This document shows positions 5,199 to 41,468 of a stretch of 64,000 nt of DNA, in pieces. The stretch comes from Nannochloropsis oceanica (lineage: Eukaryota; Sar; Eustigmatophyceae; Eustigmatales; Monodopsidaceae). Within the stretch, counting starts at the first letter, position 1. Each line of letters starts with the position of its first letter. The translations under genes were made by a program, and so were the position numbers. The stretch lies in NCBI GenBank assembly GCA_004519485.1, contig CP038135.1, positions 368,501 to 432,500 of the forward strand, given 5' to 3'. The notes under the pieces are model-generated. The model was given only the letters and a program-made list of their open reading frames with translations. It ran no database searches and was not told where the DNA came from.

Positions 5199-6793
5199 CT
5201 AAAACTCTAACGCCCCCTCCGCAACCGGCGTCACGGTCCTTGACCCTTCCCTCCCCCCTGACTGCCCATCCACCCCTCCCACGCCATTTAAGCCCCCCAC
5301 CACCGCCGTTGCATCCTCTCCTGCCCGCCTCGCCCCCTGCCCTCCCCCCTCATTTCCCCCCCCCCCTTCCTCCTCCCCTACCAGACACGTCAATGGCCCT
5401 ACTGCCCCTGGCACCCGCGGTGTCCCGTCCGGACCCAGCAACGCAAACACTGCCTGCTGATCGCTATCCATATTCAACTTCTCCAAACTCGGTACCGACA
5501 AATTTCGCGCCAACGACCCGTTACTCCCCTCCCCAACGCCCCCCATCCCTCCACTTGACTTGATCAGGCGTTTCCAGGCCTCGTGCGTCTCCCGGATCAC
5601 CCGCATGGTATATTTAACGCCCATAAACCTCTCCCCCAGCGCAAACCTGTTCTCCGGCTTCCCGTCTGGAATCTTGTACGTCCTGAACCACTCCCTTATC
5701 GCGTGCAACGTCCCCGGCAGCAGCCTCTCCACATCCTGGACATCATTCAGTTCCCCCGCCCATCGGTCCTCCTCGTCAATCGCGATCACCTTCCAGTCTG
5801 CCTCGCCATCATCGATCAGGCACAACACACCCAGCACCTTCACCTGCCGCACAGCCCCCGTTGGGATCTGTCGCAGGCCAATCTCACAAACGTCGAGAGG
5901 GTCATTATCCCCCCCCACCCCTACGTCCTCGGGCACATGTTTGGGGTCTTCCCAGGTCCGGGGGAAGCAACCATAGTTAAAGAAAATGTCGCCCTTCGAA
6001 AACACGCGAGGCTTGCCGTTCTTTTCGTCTTGCTTTATAGGATTCCCGGCTTCGGTGGTGCAGATTTCGAACTTGCGGCGAGTGAACTTGGGGCTGGAGG
6101 GAAGGAGGGGAGGAAGGGAAGAAAGAAAAGGGAGAGGGATGGGTGAATGAGGAGCACATACTCTCGAGGAAATAAAAGAGCAGAGAGGAAAAGGCACAGT
6201 TCCCTACAGGGCTACCCCCGGACGAGTCGAAAGATGTAAGAAGCTACGTACATCTCGCAAATGAAGTTGAGTGCGCCTGTGGGTCGGGCATCGTCGTCAA
6301 CGGCAAAGAGGGGCAGCTCATGCCAGAGGGAGATGCGCTCCTCGTTATGGTCGAGGGAATGCACGCGATAATCCACCGTGTCATGTTCTCCTTCCTATAT
6401 GTAGGGTAAATCGGTGGGGAGCAGAGGATTTGCGGGTGTATGGGGTTGAGAATGGCGTAGGTTCGTTTTGTCAGACAGCAGGAATCGTAGGGATAATTGT
6501 TCCGAGCCTGCCGTTCTTGGCGTTTGTCGTTCATCCATGTATTCTAGCACTACGCATAGAGGTTGATTAAGAGCTATTGAAAAAAGTGTGTTGATTTTTT
6601 ATTTGCTCACACCCTCACTTCGCTCGGCATGCACAGCGCCCTCCGATCGTGCCCGAGCGCCACGCCACCACCACCCTCTCTACGCCTCCCTCACCATCCC
6701 ACCCGGTTGTCTCACGATGTCTTCTATACAATTTTTACGTACGTGGACTTTGGTCAAGCGGTTGATGGTGTTGATGGAGGCGACACGCTTCAT
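5199..6793 (-). CDS. Soluble inorganic pyrophosphatase (family I, eukaryotic type)
   Basis: The enzyme hydrolyses PPi to two phosphates, pulling biosynthetic reactions forward. Three exons, 6793-6743, 6394-6252 and 6093-5199, give 362 residues in frame throughout. The second junction restores an Ile (AT|C) and yields ICEIPKFTRRKFEICTTEAG, the conserved family I strand. Visible active-site motifs are KGDIFFNYGCFPRTWEDP and GDNDPLDVCEIG, the metal-binding Asp cluster, then KVLGVLCLIDDGEADWKVIAID. The first exon encodes only 17 residues (MKRVASINTINRLTKVH), which could be a weak organellar pre-sequence; its link to exon 2 is the least certain part. After the catalytic core there is a Gly/Ser-rich C-terminal extension of about 110 residues not usual for the family. 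The enzyme's identity is certain; its compartment is not. Confidence 0.9.
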
Positions 6794-21243: not shown

Positions 21244-24200
21244 ATGCATTTGGTGGACAGGTAAGTGTATGTCCTGCATTATGAAAGGTTTCTCTGAGTA
21301 ACTTTCATCTAAGACCTATATTTCGTCCTGCTCTTTCAACTGGTAGTCCAGCCACATTAAATTTGCCTTGTTTCTTGGCAGGAATTTACCCATCTTTACC
21401 GTAAATCAAATAGATAGCCAAAACCAACGATCTATTCACCATCTCTGCAATCCACACAGAAAGCAACACGGAAGTATTTTCATGCGCGGTGTCAGTCTCT
21501 ACTGTCTAATGGGATGTGTCCGCGCCTTCCACTTCCACCACGCTCTTCCTTCTCCCTCTTCCGCTACCAGCAAATGGCTCTACCCCTCCTCCTTCCACCG
21601 CAACCAATACCAGCAACGTCCTTTCTGGACAATGAGCGCCAGTACCAACACGGATACCAGCACAAACATTCACACCAAAAGCAATGTTCCAAGTGGAAGC
21701 AGCTCGACGGGGGTTGACAGCGCGCGGGCTGGATATTATCGGACATTTGACGCGGCTGGTACCCCAGACGTTGACCCGTTGCTTCGGAGCCAAGTCCGCG
21801 AGAAGTTGCTGAGCAAGCGGAGGGAACGTTTTAGTAAGGAAAAAGGGGAAGAGATTTTGCAGCAGTTGAGTGATAGTCGGGTGGTGCCTGTGAGAGTCTT
21901 GGTCGACGTAGATTTACGGCAGACCTTGAGGCTGACAAGGCGGGAGAAGAAAACTCGATTGTTCATCCCGGTGGAAGCAATGAGTAAATTGAGTGTCTTC
22001 CTGGGCTATATATATCAAGCATTTCCTGTAGAGGGCATGCCGCACAACATTGTGGTTAAGATCCGAAGGGGGGAAAGCACTGCCACTCGGGCAGGGGGAG
22101 GAGAGGTGAATACCGAAGCTGCTGTTCAACAGAAAGATGAGGAGAGCAACAACACCAGCGAGAGTAGCAGCAACATCAGCTGTGAGGAAACTGAAGATTT
22201 GTTCATCACCTTGGTGACTGATGCGGACCTTCAACAAGCTTTTTCGGAGGCTCAAAAAGAAGGCCAAATGCCACAGCTTTACATTAAAACGGACAAGACA
22301 GCCGCTGCCGCCATGGTTCCCTCCTACCTCCGCGACATGCCCGACCCTAGGCTCGCCGAAGCGATGCAAATGGTGTCTTTCTACAATTTTTTCACGCCGC
22401 CGATCGCCGATGAATTGGGTTTAACCCAACTGGCGAAAAGGCTCAGGGCGGTCTGGGAGCCATTCGGGGCGTTGGGGAGAGTGTACGTTGCGAGTGAAGG
22501 AATCAATGCCCAAATGGCAGTCCCGGCGACCGTTTTCCAGAATTTTGCCGAGGCTTGCACGTCATTGAGTGAGTTAAAGAATGTCTTTTTGAATAGGGAC
22601 AGGGAAGTGAGGATGGAGGAGTATATGGAGGAGCCAGCTTTTGATTCACTGCATATCAGAGTCCGCGAACAGGTGGTGGCGGATGGAGGCATGGAGGGAG
22701 ACAGGGGGGAGGGGAGAAAGGGAAAAGAATTTGATTGGCAGGATTGTGGAGTTGGGATGAGCCCGAGTGAGTGGCACGAGAAGGTGGATGACCCCAAGGT
22801 GCTGGTCCTCGACTGTAGAAATGAATTTGAGTCGGAGGTCGGGCGATTTGTGTCAGCGGAGCCGTTGAACACGAGTTTCTTCCGGGAGTCTTGGGACGTC
22901 TTAAAAAGGAGATTAGAAGACGTGCCGAAGGAGACAGAGATTCTGACGTACTGCACGGGTGGAATTCGGTGTATTAAAGTGGGGGCCTACCTGAAGCAGG
23001 AGCTAGGGTTTGAAAACGTCGCGAGGTTAGAAGGAGGGATTGTCTCGTATGCCAGGCACTTACGGGGGGAGCAAGTTGTTGATCCGGCTTCACAAACTAC
23101 ATCAACTGTCAAAACGGCAGCGGTAGCGGTGGGAGGGGTGATTCCTGGAAGTAAGTTCAAGGGGATTAACTATGTATTTGATAATCGACTCGGGGAGAGG
23201 ATAACGGAAGATGTTCTCGCACGATGCGACCAATGTGGCACCCCTTCGGACAACTACGTGAATTGCGCCAACCCCAATTGCCATGTGCGTTTCCTCCAAT
23301 GCTCCTCTTGCAGCGCATCGCACCAGCAATGCTGCTCCCGTGGGTGCATCCAAGCTTTGCAAGACCTCGAGCATCAACCCCCCAAAGGCGGCTATCCCGC
23401 CCCTCCCCGCAGTGTTTACCCTCCCGGCGTCGAAGAAGCTTGCCCGCTTCTACCTCTGTCGGAGGGGAAGCGAAGGTCCCGTAAGAGGGTTTGGCTCCAG
23501 CCGGGGCCCTTCCAGAATGTTCGTTTAAATAGAGGCTTTGACGTGGCCATGGATGCCTTTATGGAAGCTGAAGCAGGGACGTTGCTTGAGTCCGATTTGC
23601 TTCAACGCTTGTCGCAGGAGACAGAGGGCGTGTTTCCGGGAGGAGCACACATGTTGTCCGGGCATAGTCAGGGGAGACTATTGGCGACGTTGACGAAAGC
23701 GATCGGCGCGAGATCCGCGTTGGAGATTGGCACATTTACAGGGTATGCTACCTTGTGCATGGCTGAGGGTTTGGCAGGCGCTGCTACTGTTACTGCTGCC
23801 GCTGTTGGTGCTGATGCCGCTGTTGGTGCTGATACTAGTGGGGGTTTGCGCCCCAAGGTAGTAACGTGTGAGATTGATCATCGTGCGGCCCAGATTGCTA
23901 AAAAGTATTTTGATGAGGCTGCTGCTACTCCTGCTGCAGGTACTGCTCCTGCTGCTGAAATTGAGATGCACCGAGAGCCGGCCATGGATTTACTGCAGCG
24001 GTTGGCGGCAACGCCTGAAGGAAAGGGAAGACCGAGTTTTGATGTGATTTTCTTAGATGGCGATAAAAAGAGATATATCGAGTATTATGACTTTGTGTTG
24101 GAACACAAGCTTCTGTCCGGGGGGGGGATAATGATAGCGGACAATGTGTTGTGGAAAGGGTTGGTGCCTGAGCTAGGACGACGGATTGGGAAGGGCGGAG

Positions 24201-24430
24201 AGAAGGCGGTGTTGCCAGTGGAAGAATTTGAGGCCCTAGGATTTAGTAGAAGGCAGGTGATGTTGACCAAGGTGTTGCATGATTTCAACATGCACGTCCG
24301 CGCGGACATGCGGACGGAGCAGGCATTTTTGCCCATAAGAGATGGGCTTTTAATTATGCGATGGAAGGGATTTGAACGTACCATGCTATCTATGGCGGCT
24401 GGGGCTCCTCCTGTGTCTGGGAGAAGGTGA
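21244..24430 (+). CDS. TrhO-type tRNA uridine-34 hydroxylase fused to class I O-methyltransferase
   Basis: Exon 1 (21244-21260, only 17 nt, start context cgccgccATGC) joins exon 2 (21382-24430) at AG|G to give 1021 residues. A later Met (21482) begins a hydrophobic leader ending in RAFHF, resembling a plastid signal junction, so it may be an alternative start. Residues ~176-305 look PB1-like. Residues ~340-450 match the TrhO/UPF0176 N-terminal domain (YNFFTPP..., GRVYVASEGINAQMAVP). The rhodanese domain (~479-565) has the catalytic Cys in CTGGIRC (530-536). A Cys-rich zinc-type module (~621-660) follows, as in TrhO. Residues ~715-1015 form a CCoAOMT-like methyltransferase: ALEIGTFTGYATL for AdoMet, DVIFLDGDKKRYIEYYD for metal/substrate, MIADNVLWKG. 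In bacteria TrhO makes ho5U34 using O2, and TrmR, an O-methyltransferase of this family, makes mo5U34. The fusion would do both. Domain calls are secure; the tRNA role is inference. Confidence 0.9.
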
Positions 24431-26766: not shown

Positions 26767-27108
26767 AAAATAAGCTGTGTATGGGGTGGTAGGGGTTGTG
26801 TGGTGTGTGGGAGTGTGGGGTGGGGAGGTTAGAAAATGTATCGCATGACTTGGCAGTAAATAATCAACTTTAAATAATCAACATAAGAAGAAGAAAGTAT
26901 GGCAAGTAAACCAAATATCGCTTTGGGGTTTCGGGGTCGGGGGTTGGGTGGGCCCCTTGCTTGCGTCAAGGTGTGGCCCATCACTCTCTTCACTGCCGAC
27001 GCTGACGAAGGAAGGGATGCCGCTGTCCTTCTTATCCGTACAATCCACGCCACACACTCATCAGTGCCACGCCATTCCTACCACACAGGACACGTTGAAA
27101 TTAAATAT
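26767..27108. other. Intergenic region and probable 5' leader
   Basis: It leads into the CSB-like gene. An in-frame Met at 26899 would extend that protein by 70 residues, but the added sequence has no low-complexity bias or motif like the rest of the N-terminus, so it is treated as leader. Confidence 0.35.
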
Positions 27109-30100
27109 ATGGATGCCGCGTTCGCCCCTGCTGTTGTAACCTCAGAGCCCGCGTCCTCTTGTTCCTCAGCCCAGCCACACGCTCCCGCAGCTCTTGGCAC
27201 TACAACTATTACCACTGCGCCCACCGCCTTCACAACCGCCTCTCCTTCTGGCGGCCTCAACGGCACCGATGAGTATGTTGATAATGTGCTGGACAGGCTG
27301 GGGGTTCGGCATGTAGACGAGGACGTGGTGGCGTGCGAGGTTATCCAGAAGGCGCAAGCTCGGTGGGCTTCCATCGCGGCTGCCAAGCGGGCTCGTAGAC
27401 CTCCTCCTCCTCCACCTCCTCCGGCACCAGCTGCATCTAAAATTAGGGGAACTGGAACACCGGAGCTGGCGGAAGATGATGTACCTGCTTCCGACGCAGT
27501 AGCAGTAGTGACAGTGGCATCGACAGTACCCGTTTGGAGGAAGAAGAAAAAGGGAGGACGCAAGTCGGAGGCGGAGGAGGAGGAGGAAGACGGTGGGGCT
27601 GTGAGTGGGGATGAGAGTGATAAAAAGAAAGCAAAAGCAAAAGATGGAAGGAGAAAGGAGGGAATGATGAATGAGATGCTGGGTGAGTCGAACCAGGTGC
27701 GTTTTGGGGACTTGACTCCTTTTGAGGAGCAACGGTTGGCAGCTGAGCAGAAATCGGAGAGGCACAAAAATAGGCTGCAGCAGCAAGAGGAGGAAGCAAA
27801 ACGAATAGGGGGAGGAGGAGAAGGAGGAGGAGGGGGGGGGGGTAGTACGCTATCCGGGGATGGTGGGGCGATACCGAAGATAAAAAAAGAGAGGCTTTTG
27901 TCGCTGCCACTTCCATCATCGTCGTCTACAGCAGCAGCAGCAGCAGCAGCGAAAGGTGGTGATGGAGCAGACGACGAGGGGGGGGGCCAGCAAAGACAAT
28001 GGGAGAATGATGTTTCCAAAAAGAAGAGGACATATATGAAGCCGCAGCAGCAGAAAGGGGACGAGTATTCGCCAGGAGAAGCGGAAGAAGCAGCCGAAGC
28101 TGCACCAGCAGCCGAAGCATCATCAACAGCAGCAACAGCACCAGTGACGGCATCAATTATGCATCCAGCAGAATCCGACGCCAAGCGGAATCAAAAAAGG
28201 AAGAAACAGGCCTTCCCCAGAGGTCACGGCCCAAAACTGTCCTCGGCGACCAGCAGCTGCCGTCGCGCCCGCAGCAGCAGCAGCAGCAGCAATGATATGG
28301 CGATTGTAATGGATGATAATAAAAAGAAGGGAACGGACAAGGAGGGAGAGGAGGAAGGCGAGCCCACTGTTTCGTGCCCTGTGTGTGGGAGGGGTGTGCC
28401 TGTTCAGGATAAGACCCAACCGGACGCTGAGCTTTCGCAGCATTTGGACCGATGCATGCGTACGTCACGAAGGCGGGCTAGCGCGGCATATAAGGACGAG
28501 GAGGACGAGGAGGACAAGAAGGGGTATAAAAAGAAAAAAGTCAATAAGGAGGAGATAAAAGAGTCGAAGGAGGGAGTGAGGAAGGAAGTGATGGATTTTG
28601 TGGACGTCGAGTCGTCGGACGAGGAGGAGGAGGAGGAGGAGGAGGAGGAGGGGAAGGAAGACGACGATGACCTAAAAACTGAAGCGCCACTCTCTCTTCG
28701 GCTTCCGACTGGGCAGCGTAAGGCCGTTACTGCTGCTGCTGTGAAAGATGGGAAAGGGAAGAAAAAGGAGAAGCAGATGATTGGAGGGAAGCAAAAGGCG
28801 AGAGGCTTCCTGTTGGTGGATGACTTCGCGGACGATGATTATGAGCATAGGTTGGACGAGTATGAGGCGGCGTTGAGAGCGATGGGGGGGAGCAGTGGTG
28901 ACGAGGAGGAGGAGGAGGAGGAGGAGGAAGATGAGGTGGAGGGGAAGGACGAGGGTAGTGGAACTGGTGGTGCTGGTGGGGGTGGCAGTATTGCGAGGGA
29001 GCCTATACCTGGCTCGCGTGCTGCCCAAGCGACGGCACGGAGGGAGGGAATGATGGAGGGGGAGACGGCGGGGCCATTGGAATTGCCTGGTGGCTTCAAG
29101 TTGCCCGCGAGGATAAATCGGAAATTGTATTGGTACCAACGTACGGGGGTAAGGTGGTTGTGGGAGCTGTACAGGCAAGGGGCGGGCGGTATATTAGGGG
29201 ATGAAATGGGTTTGGGTAAGACGGTGCAGGTGTCTGCATTTTTGGGCGGGCTGCAAAGAAGTGGAAGGCTCAGAGGCGGAGGATTGATTGTGGCACCGGC
29301 GACGTTGATGAGCCAGTGGGCAAGCGAATTGTATGCGTGGGCGCCATGGCTGCGGGTAGTGCTGCTGCATCGGTCGGCGGCGGCGTTTGCGGCGCAGCCT
29401 GCGTATAAAGTGGGACGTTTTGTCAGGAAGGTCTTGGAGATGGCGAATGGGGGAGGACAAGGAAGGAGGGGAGGAGGGGGTGTGGTATGTCTGACGACTT
29501 ATGAGAGTTTGAAACTCCTGAGGAAGGAGTTGCTGGGCCATGCTTGGGCTTATGTGGCGTTGGACGAAGGACAGAAGATAAGGAACCCAGATGCGGAGGT
29601 AGGTAGGAAAGAGAGGGACGGGCGGTGGAAGGGAGGATGTGTGGGTTTTTGTGTATGGTTTGGTCGTGTATTGCAGCTCTGTCCATCACCTCACTAACAC
29701 TCCCTCCCTCCCTTTCCCCTCCTTTCCTCCTCCCCTCCCACCAGATCACAGTCTGTGCCAAGCAGCTTCCAACCGTCCACCGGCTCATACTCTCCGGCAC
29801 TCCCATCCAAAACAATTTAAAAGAACTCTGGTCATTGTTTGATTTCTGTTTCCCGGGGCGTCTGGGGACCTTGCCGGCGTTCGAGACAGAGCTCGCGACC
29901 CCGATTAGATTAGGAGGATTCAGCAATGCAAGCCCGAGTCAGGCTCAGTGTGCATACCGATGTGCCTTGGTCTTGCGCGATTTGATCCATCCGTATTTGC
30001 TGAGGAGGATGAAGAAGGATATCATGACGATCTTGCCAATGCCGAAGAAAACGGAACAGGTATTGTTCTGTAAGCTCACGGCACGTCAGCGAGCGCTGTA

Positions 30101-32114
30101 CCGTGCCGCTATTTCCTCTCCTGAGATACGATTGATTTTGGAAGGGAAGGCGTCACATTTCAAGGCGATTACGGTGTTGAGAAAGATATGTAACCACGCA
30201 GACCTGGTCGCAGGGCCGAATGAGGAAGGCGTTGATCTGATGTCGCGAATCGTAGCCGGCGGGGGATGGGCGGATGAGTGGCACGAAAGCGACGATGAGG
30301 ACGACGACGAGGATGGGGTGGATGAGGCGGCGAGAATGGTCATGCCACGCGCAGCGAAAGGAGCCTTGAAGCCAGTGACAGCTGCAGATTATGGTGACGT
30401 AGCCCGGTCGGGGAAGCTGCAGGTGCTTGCTGAAGTCTTGCCAAGGTGGGAGAAGCAGGGGCATCGTGTCCTCCTATTTTCCCAGACCCGCCAGATGCTC
30501 GATATTCTGGAACGATTAGTGAAGCGACAGGGATGGGGATACTTACGGATGGATGGTAACACGAACGTAGGAGCTCGTCCAGCGATGATTGAACGCTTCA
30601 ATACCGACGAGAATATTTTCATTTTTCTCCTGACTACACGGACGGGGGGATTGGGGATTTCCTTGACTGGTGCGAACCGCGTAGTGCTTTTTGACCCCGA
30701 CTGGAACCCACAGACGGACATTCAGGCAAGAGAGAGAGCGTGGCGGCTGGGGCAGAAGCGGGCTGTGACGATATACAGATTGGTGACGACAGGGACAATC
30801 GAGGAGAAGATTTATCAAAGGCAGATCTTCAAGACGGCGATTTCGAATCGGGTTTTGGTGGACCCGAAGCAGAAGCGGTTGTTCTCCTCGGGGGAGTTGA
30901 AGGAGCTATTCACATTAAAAGAGGATTTTGGAGGAGGAGGAGGGGGCCAAAGGGATGGCGGTAGGGTGGATGAGGAGGCGCCTAATGATACAGCGATGGA
31001 ATTTATGGAGGGGGTGGTAAGGAGGTCGGATTTGAAGAAGAGAGGTGAGAGGAAGTGGGAAAAGAAGAAGGAGGGAGAGAAGAAGGAGAAGCGAAGGGAA
31101 GAAGAAGAAAGAGAAGGGGAACTGCGCGAGGACGACGATGAGGGAAGCGTGGGCGTGCCTGTGGAATATGAAGAAGAGCAAGAGCAGGAGCAGGGGCAGC
31201 AGCAGGACGAAGAAGACAGTAAGATATTGCGGGCTGTCTTTGAAGGCCGGGGACTGTCCAGCATCCTTAGTCACGACGTGGTCGAGTCCGGGAAACGAAA
31301 CACTGAAATGTGGGTACAAATGCAAGAACATGCCAAACGCATCGCCGACCGGGCAGCTGCGGCTCTCCAGGATTCAGCAGCCTTGGTCCTGGCGACGCAG
31401 CAGCAGCAGCAGCAACAACAGCAGCAGCAGCGGGGAGGGGGGGTGAGTAGTTTTACGCCCACGTGGACGGGGCGATCGGGGAGTGCAGGGCTGGGGGGGG
31501 CAATGGCGGCAGCCACAGAAGCAGCAGCAGCGGCGGCGTTCGTGTCATCTTTGCCGAGGTTTGGACCGCGGGGACGGATAATGGATGCGGGGGCAAGTGG
31601 CGGTGGAGGGGGGGGGGGAGAATCAGGCGTCATGTTTGGAGGGCAGTCAAATGCACCTATTAGTTCGACGGATATTTTGTCGAGGTTTCGAGAGAGGGAG
31701 GGAGGAAGTGGAAGAGGAGGAGGAGGGTTAGTGATGGCGGGAGCAGAGGCTCGGTATATGTCTTTGATGGATCGGATTAAGAAGTTTTTGATGGAAAAGG
31801 GGCCAAGGGTACCAACGGAGCGATTGCTGCAATACTTCCGGGATGTTCCACATACGGACGCGGTGATTTTTAAGGCAATGTTAAAGACTGTGGGGAGGTT
31901 GGAGAATGGGGCATGGAGCTTGAGGGAGGAGGAGGAGGAGGGGGGGGGGGGGGGGGGGGGGAGGACGGCGGAGGTAGACGTCCGGAAGGGTTTGTATGTA
32001 TGTCTTATAGACAATTGGTTAAGAGGTGAGAGAAAGGGTAATTTAGATTGCTATGATGTAGCAAAGGCTTGTGAAGGTCGAGAAGAAAAGAAGTTAATGT
32101 GCACTCAAAAGTAG
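27109..32114 (+). CDS. ERCC6: CSB/ERCC6/Rad26-type SNF2 DNA-repair ATPase
   Basis: It acts in transcription-coupled repair, remodelling stalled RNA polymerase II. Exons 27109-29598 and 29745-32114 give 1619 residues (1689 if the Met at 26899 is used). The long N-terminus is low-complexity with acidic, Lys and Gly/Ala tracts. It contains a zinc-finger-like motif of UBZ4 pattern (CPVCGRGVP... HLDRC, 28375-28455). The SNF2 core has GDEMGLGKT (motif I, 29200), motif II DEGQ (29563-29574) where CSB normally has DEGH, KIRNPDAE, LSGTPIQNNLKELWSLFDF and FPGRLGTLPAFE, then GGFSNASP, LRRMKKDIM, LRKICNHADL and LLTTRTGGLGISL. QARERAWRLGQ is motif VI. A C-terminal segment (31760-31930, LMDRIKKFLMEKGPRVPTE then WSLREE) matches the winged helix known at the CSB C-terminus. 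Poly-Gln and Gly runs lie between. Confidence 0.92.
31380..31432 (+). repeat. CAG/CAA repeat (poly-Gln)
   Basis: A run of CAG and CAA codons near 31398-31430 encodes about 11 Gln residues in the CSB-like protein. Confidence 0.8.
31925..31963 (+). repeat. GAG run followed by a long G homopolymer
   Basis: GAG codons pass into about 20 consecutive G residues, encoding poly-Gly near the C-terminus of the CSB-like protein. Such a run is prone to sequencing error, but the frame continues correctly after it. Confidence 0.8.

Positions 32115-36916: not shown

Positions 36917-41468
<4,552 letters not shown>

Follow-up and report, generated by a model that had tools for sequence, protein, structure and literature searches.

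A Putative Bifunctional tRNA Wobble-Uridine Enzyme in Nannochloropsis oceanica: TrhO Fused to an O-Methyltransferase

Introduction

Bacteria usually keep TrhO and the methyltransferase as separate proteins. In this work, a gene in which the two are joined was analyzed in the alga Nannochloropsis oceanica. The gene lies on the forward strand at 21244..24430 of the window, by which we mean the whole 64,000-nucleotide stretch of DNA analyzed (assembly GCA_004519485.1, contig CP038135.1, positions 368,501 to 432,500); the host genome is eukaryotic (29.26 Mb, 32 contigs). Its product is probably one bifunctional tRNA wobble-modification enzyme, predicted to convert U34 to 5-hydroxyuridine (ho5U34) and then to 5-methoxyuridine (mo5U34).

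Fusion of yceA (trhO) to trmR was described for Phytophthora sojae, P. ramorum, and Phaeodactylum tricornutum in the text and the Fig. 3 legend of Sakai et al. 2019 (PMC6599085). There such fusions were taken as a clue to TrhO, their carriers were labeled ‘bacterial species’, and TrhO homologues in eukaryotes were considered to suggest tRNA modification of the xo5U type (5-oxygenated uridine) in those organisms. P. sojae and P. tricornutum were confirmed as stramenopiles, and P. ramorum is a stramenopile by its genus. The sequence-only reading of this DNA had stated that no eukaryotic enzyme of this form was described, and this statement was wrong, because these passages report yceA–trmR fusions in stramenopiles. 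The alga gene is a further case of the published kind of fusion, with TrhO and a methyltransferase in one stramenopile gene, a likeness drawn from the published description. What is added here is that the fused methyltransferase, as judged from sequence, does not have the residues that mark TrmR and falls close to a bacterial class that accompanies TrhO.

Within the literature, examined in part, PMC6599085 was the only source found to mention the fusion, and no experimental test of a TrhO–methyltransferase fusion was found among records judged mostly from their titles. In the excerpts consulted, ho5U is attributed to both bacteria and eukaryotes by a review (PMC7694415), and Mycobacterium tuberculosis is described as having a homologue of TrmR but no known hydroxylase (PMC10531406), so the TrhO/TrmR pairing is not absolute.

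Results

Translation of the window gave a stop-to-stop frame of 1027 codons at 21347-24430 (+), open from 21347 to 24427. Pfam placed four domains in it. The UPF0176_N (acylphosphatase-like) domain of TrhO occupied 22367..22675 (PF17773, 7.4e-17; residues 341-443 of the frame’s translation, P0001), followed by the rhodanese domain at 22760..23056 (PF00581, 7.9e-10; residues 472-570) and by Rhodanese_C, the Cys-rich module of TrhO, at 23159..23347 (PF12368, 1.7e-18; residues 605-667), which was also detected in a search of the alga’s own genome. These three TrhO domains stood in order and each exceeded its curated Pfam cut-off. The cation-dependent O-methyltransferase domain, Methyltransf_3, occupied 23588..24361 (PF01596, 8.5e-32) in two stretches, the best at residues 837-1005. 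Chance was excluded, because four families stand in order within a single 1027-codon frame. A complete TrhO module followed in one frame by a methyltransferase like caffeoyl-CoA O-methyltransferase (CCoAOMT) was what the sequence-only reading had proposed, and the order agreed with it. The three motifs that it had named were also present: the CTGGIRC active-site loop at 22952..22972, aligned with C200-C206 of E. coli TrhO; the stretch EIGTFTGYATLCMAEG of the S-adenosylmethionine (AdoMet) loop; and the FLDGDKKRYIEYYD motif at 24050..24091, whose two Asp residues correspond in the alignment to Medicago CCoAOMT D163 and D165. We take these two Asp residues to bind the metal.

The likely start of the gene is the ATG at 21244, with one intron and a predicted product of 1021 aa. 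The candidate exon 1 (21244..21260, +; ATG CAT TTG GTG GAC AG) is preceded by GCCGCC and is followed by a candidate 121-nt intron (21261..21381, +; GTAAGT ... TTTCTTGGCAG) recognized by consensus splice sites only. Removal of this GT..AG intron joins exon 1 in frame to the main exon at 21382..24430 (+), which includes the stop codon. The start that the sequence-only reading had placed at 21244 fits this arrangement, in which the intron and a single mRNA are predicted.

In the excerpt of PMC6599085 that describes E. coli TrhO mutants, C200, T201, G203, and R205 were essential, and K112 and R114 were needed as well. In our alignment the alga protein retained C200, T201, G203, R205, and R114, and K112 was replaced by R. 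The best PDB match of the TrhO half was 9j5o, named tRNA uridine(34) hydroxylase (1.3e-29), followed by Legionella Lpg2838 (4f67, 1.5e-24). In a 19-row tree, a 100/100 branch set the TrhO half, together with E. coli TrhO and nine rows from Bacteroidota, apart from 9j5o, 4f67, three cyanobacterial rows, and three other Bacteroidota rows. The branch of the TrhO half was long (2.25) and was flagged by the tree program. E. coli TrhO (YceA, b1055) shared with the alga protein the same three domains, judged from the published account of the E. coli protein and the alignment, as well as the side of the tree and the essential residues, at 35.8% identity over 310 columns; the alga protein differed by its C-terminal methyltransferase, its long N-terminal region, the R for K112, and a score under the TrhO equivalog cut-off. 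The TrhO identity proposed from the sequence alone was thereby borne out, with E. coli-type placement and every loop residue essential in E. coli retained. The alga also has a second TrhO-like gene, split into exons (L002, G000:C29:36087-39248), with Rhodanese_C at C29:37587 and the loop CTGGVRC; it presumably resembles animal TSTD2.

A PDB search with the methyltransferase domain gave bacterial O-methyltransferases as the nearest relatives, with Synechocystis 3cbg (7.9e-23) and 2hnk among the best matches. The chain 8k1f, named tRNA 5-hydroxyuridine methyltransferase, matched at 6.4e-6. In the alignment, the alga domain retained the AdoMet-loop glycine, the Lys, and the metal-site Asp, Asp, and Asn, whose metal role is our assumption. 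The metal loop of the alga was LDGD; the other rows shown had IDAD, VDAD, IDAA, or VDVD.

Of the 87 locus methyltransferases, 37 entered the 50-row tree, from which the PDB rows 4oa5 and the human 2avd fragment were omitted; for the 45-row tree, 13 more locus rows were dropped and 8 of 11 newly fetched rows were added (L151-L153 omitted). Both trees were rooted at the midpoint. In the 50-row tree, TrmR formed a 100/100 group without the alga domain, and the plant CCoAOMTs nested in a bacterial clade (93/90) with the alga domain outside; the branch of the alga methyltransferase was long (1.08). The 45-row tree, which included YrrM-like Bacteroidota rows, agreed, and in it a 99/94 branch divided the TrmR and YrrM-like rows from the remainder. 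In the topology tests, a clade of the alga domain with three plant CCoAOMT rows was rejected (approximately unbiased (AU) p 0.0094), a clade with the bacterial plus plant O-methyltransferases gave p 0.061, and a clade with the TrmR and YrrM-like rows was not rejected (p 0.397). Membership of the C-terminal domain in the plant CCoAOMTs was ruled out by the first of these values, and a firm position among plant phenolic CCoAOMTs, one of the outcomes that the sequence-only reading had named as refuting it, did not occur.

The same reading had placed the domain in the family of TrmR. The broad family held, and a shared clade with TrmR was compatible with the tests; the residues of the TrmR clade were absent, and YrrM was a far weaker match than 3cbg. 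As judged by these marks, the alga domain appears to be neither a phenolic plant enzyme nor a TrmR ortholog, and a deep link to TrmR may exist. Bacillus TrmR (YrrM, 5zw3) and the TrmR 8k1f share with it the O-methyltransferase family, the metal-site residues, and the presumed reaction, at 22-26% identity over four TrmR-clade rows. We take the organism of 8k1f to be Mycoplasma. The highest identity, about 38-41%, was to Bacteroidota O-methyltransferases with the motif MLSGHxQGR (L012 of Roseivirga, L030, L005), with which the alga domain grouped loosely; these differ in being free-standing. Synechocystis 3cbg and the cyanobacterial genes beside trhO, of the same family, were 32-37% identical to the alga domain and have a genomic link to TrhO. 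A difference is that 3cbg grouped with CCoAOMT-like enzymes of bacteria and plants, and the separation of the alga domain from these was weak (p 0.061, as above). Among the best 25 of 32 NCBIfam families matched by YrrM, none reached its cut-off, so this library is useless for telling TrmR apart.

In a six-frame, exon-by-exon search, the fused gene was the sole Methyltransf_3 gene found in the alga genome, and a YrrM query also matched this gene only (9.5e-5). A scan of GTDB genomes found at least 579 relatives of the methyltransferase; the best 80 loci were kept, which by record title comprised four from cyanobacteria, two from Acidobacteria, and one from Actinomycetota, with all the others apparently from Bacteroidota.

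Co-occurrence with TrhO was then counted in 148 Bacteroidota genomes, 83 of which carried a TrhO with Rhodanese_C. A Methyltransf_3 score of 100-210 bits served as a proxy for the methyltransferase class. Genes in this band were present in 74/83 TrhO-positive and 7/65 TrhO-negative genomes (Fisher p 2e-23, kinship uncorrected), and genes above 210 bits occurred in seven genomes, all without TrhO. Three in-band genes were inspected; that of G096 was in the class and that of G127 was a divergent member. Nine TrhO-positive genomes had no gene of at least 100 bits, and three of these (G009, G019, G024) carried a YrrM-like gene in the 45-row tree. The TrhO-positive genome G014 carried both an in-band and a YrrM-like gene. 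The YrrM-like methyltransferases of G009, G019, G024, and G014 are L147, L148, L149, and L150, respectively. U32 is the family of TrhP, the other ho5U enzyme. In six of the 83 TrhO-positive Bacteroidota (G033, G065, G076, G115, G126, G142), TrhO and a gene of the U32 peptidase family were 0.3-1.7 kb apart.

The cyanobacterial sample held 117 genomes, 50 TrhO-positive and 67 TrhO-negative, the latter including many small genomes. Matches of at least 80 bits to a cyanobacterial member of the methyltransferase class were found in 46/50 and 11/67 of them, respectively (kinship uncorrected). In 9/50 TrhO-positive cyanobacteria, some of them close kin, trhO lay within about 3 kb of a SynOMT-type gene 50-57% identical to 3cbg (L158-L166, from G256, G157, G174, G185, G182, G160, G221, G246, and G271), and in a tenth (G169) the distance was 12.5 kb. 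The SynOMT-type gene beside trhO is a candidate for the mo5U methyltransferase of cyanobacteria. The presence of mo5U in Synechocystis RNA is reported in an excerpt in which the words TrhO and TrmR do not occur (PMC12860351), and no literature on slr0095 was found.

Fusion outside eukaryotes was sought in several collections. A scan of viral contigs gave five pattern matches and no relatives, and none of 17 phage records reached 80% coverage of the fused query. Plasmids were searched with the two halves separately, over the best 40 of 61 and 10 of 58 records. TrhO frames ran to at most 501 codons in Bacteroidota and at most 408 in cyanobacteria in the two genome samples, and the 501-codon frame, when read, held no methyltransferase. 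The long Bacteroidota TrhO frames L141, L142, and L143 (458-501 codons) were extended at the C-terminus by a further piece with an end resembling LPFRVRLSDKLYKILD; the only Pfam match was a weak one of L142 to EF-Tu domain 2 (0.037).

The mitochondrial contig C31 (38,068 bp, with cox1) and the plastid contig C32 (117,556 bp, with Photo_RC genes) were scanned by ARAGORN in pieces that stopped 68 and 556 bases short of the contig ends. It found 24 tRNA genes in the mitochondrial pieces and 24 in the plastid pieces, with some of the expected tRNA genes missing. In the plastid, the U34 tRNAs for NYN boxes were those for Pro, Val, Ser(UGA), Thr, and Leu(UAG); the mitochondrion had those for Ala, Pro, and Leu(UAG). 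ARAGORN found no other plastid isoacceptors of the Pro, Val, and Thr boxes.

Discussion

According to the proposed mechanism, the fused enzyme would bind a U34 tRNA through its TrhO half, which would use O2 to hydroxylate C5 of U34 in a bacterial-type tRNA, giving ho5U34. The tethered cation-dependent O-methyltransferase would then methylate the new hydroxyl with AdoMet, giving mo5U34, and the intermediate would be handed over directly between the halves. The retained catalytic residues of TrhO argue for the hydroxylation, the pairing together with the co-occurrence points to methylation of ho5U34, and the fusion alone suggests the direct hand-over. Support of the Rosetta stone kind comes from the three other stramenopiles for which the Sakai et al. 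passages (PMC6599085) report this pairing.

The clients of the enzyme are likely the organellar U34 tRNAs that read NYN family boxes, and we infer an organellar site of action. The sequence-only reading had named plastid or mitochondrial tRNAs, and the choice between these organelles depends on which of two possible starts, with different N-termini, is used. Phytophthora is not known to have a plastid, so a mitochondrial role would be at least as likely ancestrally.

Several results weigh against the bifunctional reading. The NCBIfam TrhO equivalog NF001133, from a library built for bacterial and archaeal genomes, scored 154.1 bits against a cut-off of 170. The likeness of the methyltransferase domain to YrrM was weak (E 1.3e-6 in the PDB search), and the Pro, Ala, and Phe/Tyr common to the four TrmR-clade rows of the alignment (Medicago positions 61, 165, and 193) were Met, Asp, and Trp in the alga. 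In both trees the alga domain joined the MLSGHxQGR rows without firm support. The score band was an imperfect label of the class, since the gene of G136, one of the seven exceptions without TrhO, lay outside it. Genes of the U32 family were negatively associated with the methyltransferase in Bacteroidota (30/72 vs 51/76, p 0.003). Of 87 methyltransferase loci taken from GTDB genomes and plasmids, none had trhO in the fetched flanks (up to 5 kb). The cyanobacterial neighbors L158-L166 were nearer to 3cbg than to the alga domain, and they do not form an operon with trhO, because the two genes were convergent in all nine genomes. Both genes may simply track aerobic life or genome size, and the tests in the two phyla made no correction for kinship. 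No measurement of mo5U in any alga was found in the literature listings.

The strongest alternative is that the TrhO half hydroxylates U34 but the substrate of the methyltransferase is something else, such as a phenolic or CoA ester, a different RNA, or a protein, in which case the fusion would only co-localize the two. The best PDB matches, O-methyltransferases like 3cbg and 2hnk rather than TrmR, and the missing TrmR signature residues are what this would predict. The rejection of plant CCoAOMT placement (p 0.0094), the bacterial co-occurrence and neighborhood with trhO, and the pairing described for three other stramenopiles in the excerpt of PMC6599085 speak against it, and we regard it as unlikely. 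A degenerate or regulatory C-terminal domain that aids AdoMet or tRNA binding, with the product stopping at ho5U34, would fit the long branch (1.08), the repeat-rich inserts that a tandem-repeat search located inside Methyltransf_3 (23793-23833 and 23918-23957, +), and the LDGD of the metal loop, unlike the other rows shown. The AdoMet-loop glycine, the metal-site Asp, Asp, and Asn, and the Lys were nevertheless all retained, which makes such decay improbable.

A persulfide or sulfur-transfer rhodanese in place of a hydroxylase is very improbable: the rhodanese domain with its CXGGXR loop, and the matches to further rhodanese models in NCBIfam, each under its cut-off, leave it some room, but UPF0176_N and Rhodanese_C were both found, the TrhO half took its place with the E. 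coli type, and the residues at 112 and 114 were still basic. That two genes were merged by a slip of annotation or assembly is scarcely credible, given 1027 stop-free codons with no intron needed between the domains, a codon-position composition similar on either side of the junction except in one repeat-rich block, and the fusions reported in relatives in the cited part of PMC6599085.

Beyond the bifunctional reading, we put forward a broader and more tentative proposal, which we hold to be somewhat less probable than its opposite. The fused methyltransferase might represent a second family of ho5U34 O-methyltransferases besides TrmR, hidden among ‘caffeoyl-CoA-like’ enzymes. Its free-standing MLSGHxQGR relatives in Bacteroidota and its SynOMT-type relatives beside trhO in cyanobacteria might do the work of TrmR there, and stramenopiles might have fused it to TrhO for organellar mo5U34, an xo5U-type modification in a eukaryote. 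If the methyltransferase does make mo5U, bacterial genes labeled merely as O-methyltransferase become candidate tRNA enzymes. With a fused hydroxylase–methyltransferase and no other Methyltransf_3 gene found, the alga makes the idea of eukaryotic xo5U testable.

Other Features of the Window and the Plastid Contig

An alternative start ATG was present at 21482..21484 (+), and the two starts give different N-termini. The product from ATG 21482 would expose MRGVSLYCLMGCVRA-FHFHH, with a hydropathy peak at GVSLYCLMGCV (mean 1.82); this exposed part, in which VRA-FHF comes after a brief hydrophobic run, is taken to resemble the signal-plus-transit presequence of secondary plastids. A weak PB1-like stretch was located in the N-terminal region at 22193..22285 (+; PF00564), with an E value of 0.0026 for a 208-aa piece, under the curated cut-off, and of 0.13 in the full-length protein. 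A tRNA enzyme would not usually carry such a stretch.

In locus L124 of the plastid contig C32, Rfam matched IsrR at 5383-5565 (-) with 154.8 bits, downstream of a Photo_RC gene. Rather than a true IsrR, this match is probably the antisense strand of psbC, a gene presumably related to isiA.

Elsewhere in the window, a SNF2 helicase was found at 26887-32111 (+), split between two frames that overlap (SNF2 profile 1-144 in one and 146-289 in the next); because the profile divides across these frames, an intron or a frame break is expected near 29600-29700. A frame of 1376 codons at 36920-41047 (-) encoded a LacZ-type beta-galactosidase of glycoside hydrolase family 2 (GH2).

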